A DNA stretch of 64,000 nucleotides from Shimia sp. R10_1 (GTDB taxonomy: Bacteria > Pseudomonadota > Alphaproteobacteria > Rhodobacterales > Rhodobacteraceae): NCBI RefSeq assembly GCF_017744095.1, contig NZ_JAGHQX010000011.1, forward strand, positions 1 to 64,000. Direction: 5' to 3'. The notes beneath the pieces are model-generated. The model was not told where the DNA came from and did no database searches. It worked only from the letters and a program-made list of their open reading frames with translations. Every line of letters begins with the position of its first letter. The first letter of the stretch is position 1. Of the stretch, positions 25,633-27,615 are shown in pieces. The translations under genes and the position numbers were made by a program.

Positions 25633-27615
25633 ATGTCCGGTTTATTTCCAGCTAAAACTCCGATGTCACCATCAAATGCCAGCCTCGCTAGTGCAGAGGA
25701 CACTCAAATCACACTGCGCGACAGAGCCACTCCCATATGGTCTGTGGCAGTGTCGGCACTGTTCTCTATGGGTGGCGGACTCTGCCTGTTGGCAACAGCT
25801 GTGTTCTTCATCTTTATGTATGACGAAGTGGCCATGAACGGCCAAAAACTCTTGGCCGGTCTCTTGGCTGCCTGCGCGCTGGTGCCAATCCTTGGCGTGT
25901 TCATTTTTGATGTTTGCCATGCGCGCGCTCTGTCCGGCTTACGCTATATTCGCAGGCGCAATGATGCGGTGGGGCGCGCGCTTGTCGGCGCTGTCGCCGG
26001 TGGTGTTTTTGCATTGCTGGACCCTCTGCTTGCCATCCCTTTCCTGTGCAGCGCGCTGCTCAGCTGGCTGGTTTGTCGCTACGCAACGCGTCTCCTTCAG
26101 ACGGAGCCACTTTGGGCCTTTGACACACAAGAAGCCGTATCCCTGTTAACCGGGCGCGATCAAAGAGCCGTAGACCTTGTTCAAGCCGAGAACGGTGAAA
26201 GCCCCCTTCTCGTAGCGCTGCTCAAGGTTTTCGCACTGGCGGCCTTGGTCGCAAGCATCGCGATCGCATCGTGGCTGGTTGCTGTTGGGCGCCTCAACGT
26301 CGCTGCGATTCTCACAATTGCCTTTGTGACCTATTGGTCCGCAGATGCGTTTGGCACCTTCTTTCAACAGATCTCTCGCGCCGATCCTGAGCATCTCAAA
26401 CGCGCCAAGAGCGTGGCACTGACACATCCGCCGTTTTCTGATGACCCTGCGTCCGACGAGGCGGCTTTTGTGGTGCATGATCTTTCGGTGCACACCGCAC
26501 GCAGTGCCCCGCTGCTGTCAAACATCTCGTTTCGTGCCGAACCCGGTACAATCATAGGCCTGTGTGGCGATAGTTTTGCAGGCAAGTCCCTGCTGCTTAG
26601 AGCCTTACAGGCCCCTCATGATCTCCAAGATCTGTTTGTAAGGGGCTATGTTGGTCTGCGCGGCACAGCGATGTGGGGACGCACCGCACACAACAGCCCG
26701 CTGCAATCAGTCTTGTTGCCGCCTCAACCGATTGTCGCGCCAGGCAGCGGCGCCCAAAACATCACCTGTTTCGGCGGACCTGATCATCTGGCGCGCGCAC
26801 GCCGCGCTTTACAGAGCCTGGTATTCACCGCCGACACCATCGAGCGCATTCTAACAACAAAGGACATTTCCACGCTGTCGACCAGCGAACAAAAAGCGCT
26901 CTCGATCGCCCGCGTATTGGCTCTGCGCCCCCCGCTCTACCTCATTGACCGACCCGAAGATGGCGCAAGCGACGCCATGATACACGCCCTTGGAGAAAGG
27001 CTGCGCACAGATGCGCGCCATGGACATATCGTGCTGATCGCAACCGAAAACCGCGCGCTTCTGGATCAATGCGACCAGCTCCTTATGATGCAAAACGGCC
27101 GGGTGATAGAACTGGCGGCCACAGCCGACATCCGGGCGCGGCAATCTTCCGGCGTCAGTCGTTTCACGGCACCCCGCGAGCTCGAAAGCGAAGACGCGCT
27201 CGACGGTTGGATTTGCAGTCATTTTCGCAGGGATGGCGATGAGGCCAATCGCAGAGCCGTTTGCATGGTGGCCAACGAAATACTCAGCCTGGCCTGTCAA
27301 ACCTCTGGTGACACCGCAGAAGCTGCAGACGAACTCACCTTTGAATTCAAACACTTCACCGGGAAATGCGAAATTCGATTGATAGACTCCCGGCTGAGCC
27401 TGTCGTCCGGTGCACTCAAAAAGGCAGAGAAAGCTGCCGCAACCTCTGTCGAAGGCGAACGGCTCTCGCCTCTGGCAAAAATCATGCGCGACTCGCTGTC
27501 TGTAGAGACCAGTCAAACCAACGGCACCAGCTTTTTACATGTGAGCATCAAAACATATGATCCACGGCTCCTGACACAACGCAAGGCAGACCAAAATGCA
27601 GCCACCAAAGCTTAG
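25633..27615 (+). CDS. PrtD-like ABC exporter protein with degenerate ATPase and a C-terminal GHKL (RsbW-like) domain
   Basis: A 660-residue protein. The membrane part (about 33-250) follows the type I secretion pattern (FMYDEVAMN and FDVCHARALSGLR match the PrtD/HlyB layout). The nucleotide-binding domain (about 278-500) keeps Walker A GDSFAGKS (312-319). Its signature is TLSTSEQKA instead of LSGGQ, Walker B reads YLIDRPED with Arg440 at the catalytic Glu position, and the switch His is Glu472. Residues about 525-642 resemble SpoIIAB/RsbW: a helix like the N-box (VANEILSLA), paired strands (ELTFEFKHF, KCEIRLID) and GERLSPLAKIMRD before GTSFLHVSIK; ATP-binding Asn and DxGxG are lost. It overlaps the HlyD gene. 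It may be a regulatory exporter; active transport is doubtful. Confidence 0.8.
   Translation: MSGLFPAKTPMSPSNASLASAEDTQITLRDRATPIWSVAVSALFSMGGGLCLLATAVFFIFMYDEVAMNGQKLLAGLLAACALVPILGVFIFDVCHARALSGLRYIRRRNDAVGRALVGAVAGGVFALLDPLLAIPFLCSALLSWLVCRYATRLLQTEPLWAFDTQEAVSLLTGRDQRAVDLVQAENGESPLLVALLKVFALAALVASIAIASWLVAVGRLNVAAILTIAFVTYWSADAFGTFFQQISRADPEHLKRAKSVALTHPPFSDDPASDEAAFVVHDLSVHTARSAPLLSNISFRAEPGTIIGLCGDSFAGKSLLLRALQAPHDLQDLFVRGYVGLRGTAMWGRTAHNSPLQSVLLPPQPIVAPGSGAQNITCFGGPDHLARARRALQSLVFTADTIERILTTKDISTLSTSEQKALSIARVLALRPPLYLIDRPEDGASDAMIHALGERLRTDARHGHIVLIATENRALLDQCDQLLMMQNGRVIELAATADIRARQSSGVSRFTAPRELESEDALDGWICSHFRRDGDEANRRAVCMVANEILSLACQTSGDTAEAADELTFEFKHFTGKCEIRLIDSRLSLSSGALKKAEKAAATSVEGERLSPLAKIMRDSLSVETSQTNGTSFLHVSIKTYDPRLLTQRKADQNAATKA

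Follow-up and report, generated by a model that had tools for sequence, protein, structure and literature searches.

The window analysed here, i.e. the whole stretch of 64,000 nucleotides from Shimia sp. R10_1 (contig NZ_JAGHQX010000011.1, positions 1 to 64,000), carries a cluster of glycan genes and within it, at 25633-27615, the 660-amino-acid (aa) open reading frame (ORF) of an ATP-binding cassette (ABC) protein that an earlier note on this DNA had described. The protein is composed of a transmembrane domain (TMD), a nucleotide-binding domain (NBD) and a C-terminal domain resembling RsbW, below called the tail, and we refer to it as the dead ABC (Table 1). In a Pfam scan of the product an ABC ATPase domain was recognised at residues 295-441 and no other family was found. 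The NBD matched the PrtD-type family TIGR01842 at residues 284-500 (E 2.1e-11); with 43.1 of 510.15 bits the protein stayed far short of the cut-off of this family, and its membrane part was unrecognised. As the note had read them, Walker A (GDSFAGKS) is intact at residues 312-319, Arg440 follows the Walker B Asp and the switch-His column is occupied by Glu472. TLSTSEQKA, the signature stretch, was also confirmed, at residues 414-422 and not one residue off at 413-421, where it had been placed.

A search of 99 other genomes gave orthologues of the dead ABC in 12, namely in 10 of 24 from the same genus and in G025 and G043, and orthologues from further genera were located via the cluster genes and via the tail. 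This gave 31 distinct proteins from 21 genera of Rhodobacteraceae, with the window copy included, a duplicate locus (L046) excluded and a divergent protein from genome G184 held separate. The catalytic Glu and the aligned switch His are missing in 31/31, so the broken catalytic site that the earlier note had seen in one copy is common to all, contrary to the possibility raised there that the orthologues retain both residues and this copy alone deviates. At position 440, next to the Walker B Asp, 26 proteins have R, 2 have Q and one each has G, M or K, and the switch-His column holds E in 18, D in 6, N in 2, S in 2 and Q, K or G in one each. Concurrently, the Walker A Lys and Asp439 of Walker B are present in every copy, and loss of the Glu with these two residues retained is far beyond chance. 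Gln is missing from the Q-loop column of all 31 proteins, with a Gln one residue downstream in 10, and among the 21 orthologues in which the signature motif was tabulated none has SGG. Five proteins (L052, L068, L072, L075 and L077), the window copy not among them, have a His one residue past the switch-His column, and a shifted switch His cannot be excluded in these. When 21 sequences were aligned over the whole protein 40 columns were invariant; the frame is open at full length in all 21, synteny is conserved and a HlyD-like gene adjoins the dead ABC in 19 of the 21 loci. Outside this sample, relatives were absent from plasmid records at E 1e-20, and a class-wide search of 385 genomes for the tail (E 0.01) returned the genome of the window and one congener, with none outside the family.

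The best other match in the genome of the window was a second ABC protein, here called ABC2 (G000:C39:41070-42239, L002; L024 10366-12441). It has the same C-terminal domain joined to an intact ATPase and is flanked by a HlyD gene and by an RTX gene encoding 842 aa with DUF6923 and RTX repeats. Of 17 further ABC2 loci that were read, 15 have the order RTX-ABC2-HlyD, the exceptions being G334, where RTX was unseen, and G435, where the RTX frame is split. Residues 9-537 of ABC2 matched PrtD structure 5L22 (E 3.9e-64), and in the 15 uninterrupted proteins from 18 loci the catalytic Glu was present in 15/15 and the switch His in 13/15. Comparison of the dead ABC with ABC2 by hhalign in forced global mode covered 630 columns (E 8.7e-69), and the two tails alone matched in local mode (E 1.1e-16). 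The dead ABC is thus a full-length paralogue of an intact transporter with the same tail, which means that the dead form is derived and that the fusion, for which no counterpart had been known to the earlier note, has one in the very same genome.

Of the two long cytoplasmic loops, which carry the coupling helices in exporters of this kind, each is about 30 residues shorter in the dead ABC than in ABC2, as judged from hydropathy and one global alignment (TM2-TM3 and TM4-TM5 loops between transmembrane helices, ~22 and ~51 residues vs ~53 and ~80). On this basis it is unlikely that the ATPase and the membrane part are coupled in the normal way, and together with the lost ATPase the shortened loops argue against a working exporter. 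The gating of export that had been proposed for the protein gains no support here.

The ABC2 frame is interrupted, by biology or by sequencing error, in G008 (L190 8456-10491), in G016 (L191 9856-11985) and also in the dead-ABC genome G334 (L183 8254-10401), with the HlyD gene open in each case. Four matches to ABC2 in plasmid records all end ahead of the tail. The 9 neighbouring proteins scanned in the window included neither an RTX family member nor another ABC protein of exporter type. Genome G274 has an RTX protein with 54% identity to the neighbour of ABC2, ~2.6 kb from a gene for a response regulator/SpoIIE phosphatase homologue that belongs to a sister of the present cluster (see below), and the genes seen next to this RTX gene include none resembling ABC2. 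Together with the co-occurrence of ABC2 and the dead ABC given below, which is uncorrected for phylogeny, this suggests that the RTX protein is part of the same surface system. An analogue is offered by the Rap proteins, which are secreted by a type I secretion system and act on rhizobial polysaccharide (PMC9298526).

The sequence elements from which the tail had been likened to SpoIIAB, i.e. VANEILSLA, ELTFEFKHF, KCEIRLID, GERLSPLAKIMRD and GTSFLHVSIK, were all found inside the last 115 residues of the protein. The reported loss of the N-box Asn holds, since this residue is missing at the aligned position. Loss of the DxGxG loop is true for most of its glycines and not for its Asp, as 90% or more of the 21 orthologues retain D585, and variants such as DHGPML, DRGAAI, DTGPEI and DTGAAI occur at the loop in some members. 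The GHKL motif positions used here are presumed ones that follow the family motifs and an alignment with RsbW. When 25 tails (set A5, 9 from dead-ABC and 16 from ABC2 proteins) were scanned singly, HATPase_c_2 (PF13581) was the most frequent Pfam family, in 4/25 with a best E of 2.3e-4. A rescan of 10 of these tails showed two ABC2-type tails (L148 and L157) matching at E 2.3e-4 and 0.011 in a shared register over ~100 residues, and the whole ABC2 of the same genome as the window matched in that register at E 0.071. The best score, 21.6 bits for an ABC2-type tail, did not reach the gathering cut-off of 27.4 bits.

The combined tail profile was compared with 87 profiles, including 82 decoy windows from other proteins of these loci, and a combined RsbW profile came first (p 2.8e-4, probability 41%, 109 columns). 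After NBD sequence had been trimmed from the tail, four GHKL profiles took ranks 1-4 of 87, with the best decoy at p 0.017; since one of the four is a merger of two others, which makes them interdependent, and the decoys were cut from a small number of proteins, this is a ranking and not a calibrated statistic. A ModC fragment had beaten some GHKL profiles, and its score dropped after trimming, so we think that it was due to the NBD end left in the tail alignment. In global mode, where the results were weaker and mixed, the GHKL profiles ranked 4th, 5th and 61st of 85 against the ABC2 tails and 2nd, 4th and 6th against both tail sets together. The C-terminal domain is therefore probably a degenerate RsbW-type domain with a predicted GHKL fold; the evidence is moderate, and the likeness to RsbW/SpoIIAB proposed before gains support from these comparisons and from the gene context described below.

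The most invariant residues of the tail are W526, R533, G535, D536, N539 and R540 (window 27208-27252), and a terminal DPR motif at residues 643-645 (window 27559-27567) is likewise highly invariant. These invariant residues are distant from the N-box and the DxG loop and are likely to form a contact surface.

The glycan setting of the ABC gene is borne out by the genes around it, as two DUF3131 proteins, a CelA-like synthase of family GT2 and an acyltransferase are encoded nearby (Table 1). The HlyD-like adaptor scored 21.6 bits with HlyD_3 (cut-off 22.2) and 21.2 bits with HlyD_D23 (cut-off 30). The gene at 33144-34634, which had gone unmentioned in the earlier note, encodes a fusion of a STAS domain with a sugar-1-phosphate nucleotidyltransferase. 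The GT2 protein of 30402-32267 carries QRLKY at the site where cellulose synthases have QxxRW. Genes at 19408-21991, which we take to be the molybdate transporter genes modABC, adjoin the cluster here and in 10 other dead-ABC genomes of the genus.

Table 1. Features of the dead ABC gene and of the surrounding glycan cluster in the window
Feature	Position	Strand	Basis or remark
Dead ABC, 660 aa, with TMD, pseudo-NBD and RsbW-like tail	25633..27615	+	
Membrane part with hydrophobic stretches, residues 40-63, 73-94, 117-146, 198-237	25750..26343	+	hydropathy
Nucleotide-binding domain, residues 276-503	26458..27141	+	Pfam ABC_tran E 5.1e-11; ATP-binding residues kept, catalytic ones lost
Walker A GDSFAGKS, residues 312-319	26566..26589	+	K318 in 31/31
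Walker B Asp439, then Arg440 in place of catalytic Glu (YLIDRPED)	26947..26952	+	
Glu472 in switch-His column	27046..27048	+	orthologue alignment
C-terminal domain, residues 505-647, probably degenerate RsbW/GHKL-like	27145..27573	+	profile comparisons
HlyD-like periplasmic adaptor	27596..28858	+	overlaps ABC gene by 20 bases
DUF3131 protein a	23768..25465	-	divergent to ABC gene; E 7.4e-120
Conserved cluster protein, 540 aa	22146..23768	-	no significant Pfam family
DUF3131 protein b	29111..30427	-	E 1.3e-125
CelA-like GT2 glycan synthase	30402..32267	-	Glycos_transf_2 E 2.5e-13; TIGR03030 partial, 198 of 699 bits
Conserved protein without Pfam family	32329..33261	-	start may be internal; genus orthologue ORFs 251-311 aa
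STAS fused to sugar-1-phosphate nucleotidyltransferase	33144..34634	-	NTP_transferase E 6.9e-40; alignment
STAS domain, residues 1-112, SGL motif	34299..34634	-	Pfam STAS 22.6 bits, exactly at cut-off
Acyltransferase 3 family protein	34649..35800	-	E 1.3e-29

Sister clusters give an indication of what the tail may bind. The DUF3131 protein a was found in 23 of 238 family genomes searched, 15 of which have a dead-ABC tail, and the eight without a match to this tail are G031, G039, G121, G161, G184, G191, G219 and G274. A standalone STAS gene with the motif DSSGLG and a standalone RsbW-like gene were present in 8/8 of these clusters; Pfam scans of three of the RsbW proteins gave HATPase_c_2 at E 2.8e-16, 1.9e-19 and 1.2e-21, and scans of two of the STAS proteins gave E 6.9e-18 and 3.6e-16. 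A response-regulator/SpoIIE phosphatase homologue was found in 7/8, two of them Pfam-checked and that of G121 31% identical. In the stretches of 5.7-20 kb read around the 23 loci of the window type (L025-L048 minus L037, which is G121) there was neither a standalone RsbW (0/23 at E 0.001) nor a homologue of the response-regulator/SpoIIE protein (0/23). For L025 and L034 the STAS gene is outside the stretch read, just beyond it or elsewhere in the genome. Furthermore, in G121 STAS, nucleotidyltransferase and RsbW are three separate adjoining genes, and L037 was therefore, as unfused, excluded from the counts of fused STAS domains. The sister clusters show that the STAS/RsbW pair belongs to this glycan pathway, and the gene context, which points to STAS as the partner of the tail, is the strongest evidence.

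The fused protein co-occurs with the dead ABC. All 11 dead-ABC genomes among the 25 of the genus have the STAS-nucleotidyltransferase in full (E up to 1.7e-51), against 0/14 of the others, where the weaker matches covered the nucleotidyltransferase part alone. In a family sample of 394 genomes, one per genus bar one, the dead-ABC tail occurred in 22 genomes from 21 genera, and a search for the fused protein at E up to 1e-25 gave 15 genomes, namely 14 of these 22 and one of the 372 others (G121). At E up to 1e-12 the match extended into the STAS part in 21 of the 22, the exception being G224, an assembly in 460 contigs. The phospho-acceptor position of 22 fused STAS domains is occupied by Ser in 15, Thr in 2 and Ala or Gly in 5. 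In three of the 22 fused proteins (L036, L041 and L047) the nucleotidyltransferase motifs are lost and the STAS-fused protein is kept, i.e. a second pseudoenzyme.

Taken together, our results lead us to a tentative reading, to which we assign somewhat less than an even chance: the dead ABC may be a pseudo-ATPase scaffold whose RsbW-like tail holds the STAS-nucleotidyltransferase at the glycan synthase. A type I secretion ABC exporter would have become a pseudo-ATPase that neither hydrolyses ATP nor runs the usual transport cycle, and for which any bound nucleotide would be no more than a static or sensing ligand. Together with its HlyD partner it could serve the CelA-like synthase as a base in the inner membrane, and the degenerate tail would dock the STAS domain fused to the nucleotidyltransferase of the cluster, thereby bringing the activated-sugar supply, or a signal of that supply, to the synthase. 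The pair of tail and STAS domain would thus replace the RsbW/STAS partner switch of the sister clusters, minus its kinase and phosphatase steps. As neither a kinase nor a phosphatase gene turned up in clusters of the window type, the catalytic Asn is lost and Ala or Gly stands at the acceptor position in 5/22 (Ser or Thr in 17), we would expect a constitutive or nucleotide-dependent dock in place of a phospho-switch. Possible, and in our judgement doubtful, is the further step that a "frozen" partner switch has come to serve as a physical coupler, a dock that works without phosphorylation and connects the synthesis of precursors with the glycan machinery in the membrane. Of the earlier interpretation, the conserved broken site, the RsbW-like tail and the glycan setting are supported, uniqueness of the fusion is not, and export gating stays a proposal.

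Several observations weigh against this reading, first on the identity of the tail. The tail of the window protein itself has no Pfam GHKL match, and in a set of 21 dead-ABC tails (A2) HATPase_c_2 matched in 1/21 at E 0.067, the good matches being of the ABC2 type. The dead-ABC tail profile found no GHKL chain in PDB, where all matches were at E 0.12 or above, the 41% given above is the best profile-profile probability against GHKL, and an earlier hhalign comparison with fewer sequences was weak, at ~1%. In global mode with dead-ABC tails alone, the GHKL profiles came 9th, 19th and 21st of 85. Other observations concern the partner. The same tail is borne by ABC2, which in this genome has no match to the STAS-nucleotidyltransferase among its neighbours, and a different partner of the tail is thus conceivable. 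The search for STAS at E 1e-12 was made mainly in dead-ABC genomes, and specificity outside the genus consequently rests on the counts at 1e-25. Mirror-tree comparison of tail and STAS gave partial r 0.40-0.50 with 17-19 sequences and r 0.09 when thinned to 11, and since the signal disappeared on thinning we give it little weight. No HlyD neighbour was detected in 2 of the 21 orthologous loci, at one of which just 1.5 kb was read. Finally, G184 combines standalone STAS and RsbW genes with a divergent dead ABC that bears the tail (L201 12957-14894, with a HlyD-like gene; its Walker B Asp is followed by T, and the His column holds D), and as tail and RsbW coexist there the tail is not simply a relocated RsbW. 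The G184 protein is possibly an intermediate state.

Four other explanations were considered. The tail could be a substrate-handling appendix of this subfamily of type I secretion ABC proteins, unrelated to STAS and in a role like that of the peptidase-like domain of HlyB, and in the dead ABC it would have been kept for holding a secreted or glycan-linked client. This would fit with the domain being common to ABC2, which adjoins a conserved RTX gene and HlyD, and with the lack of a small standalone copy of the tail, all matches in the tail searches being in open frames of 479-1073 residues. It is nevertheless unlikely in our view, as it leaves the HATPase_c_2 register and the reciprocity with RsbW (8/8 vs 0/23) unaccounted for.

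Alternatively, the dead ABC could be the regulatory half of a heterodimeric exporter with ABC2 that secretes the RTX or a glycan-bound protein. In the family sample, ABC2-type tails (E < 1e-35) were found in 13/394 genomes, all within the 22 with a dead-ABC tail and in 0/372 others (Fisher p 7e-19, phylogeny uncorrected), and in the genus ABC2 occurred in 11/11 genomes with vs 3/14 without the dead ABC (p 1.2e-4, phylogeny uncorrected), two of the latter three, G008 and G016, having the interrupted frames mentioned above. This co-occurrence could, however, reflect shared ancestry, as no species tree was used, and an ABC2-type match is missing in 9 of the 22 dead-ABC genomes, including the well-assembled G261, G295 and G421, while G334 has an interrupted one. 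Pairing is thus not obligatory, and this distribution led us to discard the idea of an obligate heterodimer. Moreover, Walker B and signature are both degenerate in the dead ABC, so that both composite sites would be damaged, and its cytoplasmic loops are shorter than those of ABC2 by the ~30 residues given above. We consider also a looser heterodimer quite unlikely.

Very unlikely, to our mind, is that the dead ABC and HlyD form a passive glycan conduit in which the tail is merely a dimerisation or stability element. RsbW proteins do dimerise, and the HlyD-like neighbour in 19/21 loci agrees with a conduit, but the invariant tail residues (W526, R533, G535, D536, N539 and R540) suggest a specific contact, and as CelA-like synthases translocate their own product an inner-membrane conduit would be unneeded. 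That the gene is a decaying, functionless transporter relic, as the loss of several catalytic motifs might imply, is hardly credible and was set aside, since the 40 invariant columns among 21 full-length orthologues, the conserved synteny and the invariant ATP-binding residues rule out decay.

The protein is a conserved ABC exporter turned pseudoenzyme, dead in 31/31 copies from 21 genera of one family, and bears what appears to be an extra domain of signalling type. Fused domains often derive from proteins that work together, and the STAS-nucleotidyltransferase and the ABC protein with its RsbW-like tail are two concrete candidates for the target of STAS in polysaccharide control. A frozen switch, if real, would give a lead to the targets of STAS proteins where partner switching controls bacterial polysaccharides. 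Among the open-access literature matches listed, a conserved dead ABC with an RsbW-like tail opposite a STAS-nucleotidyltransferase was undescribed.

Parts of the system resemble known ones. With PrtD-type ABC proteins (TIGR01842, 5L22) the dead ABC shares the NBD match and the HlyD neighbour, and its paralogue ABC2 matches 5L22, but it differs by the shortened loops, the lost ATPase residues, the extra C-terminal domain and the unrecognised membrane part. The tail shares with RsbW/SpoIIAB kinases the order of elements, an N-box-like helix, the Asp of the DxG loop and the last helix-strand pair, whereas the tail in the window lacks the N-box Asn and the loop glycines and is fused to an ABC protein. 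Where an ABC exporter is a heterodimer with a single degenerate site, a changed Walker B Glu is frequently found together with a changed H-loop, according to the accessible part of PMC7756269; in contrast to such exporters, the dead ABC is altered at the Walker B Glu, the signature, the Q-loop and the switch His in one polypeptide. Regulation of an ABC ATPase by a STAS protein is known from MlaFB, where MlaB binds and regulates MlaF. In the accessible part of that source (PMC7367683) MlaB contacts the NBD itself, MlaF belongs to an active transporter and a GHKL domain is unmentioned. Anabaena all4160 is a glycosyltransferase with an N-terminal STAS domain, and thus like the STAS fusion of the window joins STAS to a polysaccharide-type enzyme; it differs in being a glycosyltransferase, and a dead ABC is unmentioned in the accessible part of PMC8256260. 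In Vibrio fischeri, a STAS protein (SypA) and its serine-kinase partner (SypE) are tied to a polysaccharide locus (PMC10120452), and SypA controls biofilm formation below transcription through a protein target that the accessible parts of PMC10120452 and PMC8256260 give as unknown. In the present system, by comparison, the STAS domain forms one protein with a nucleotidyltransferase, and the RsbW-like domain is part of the dead ABC.

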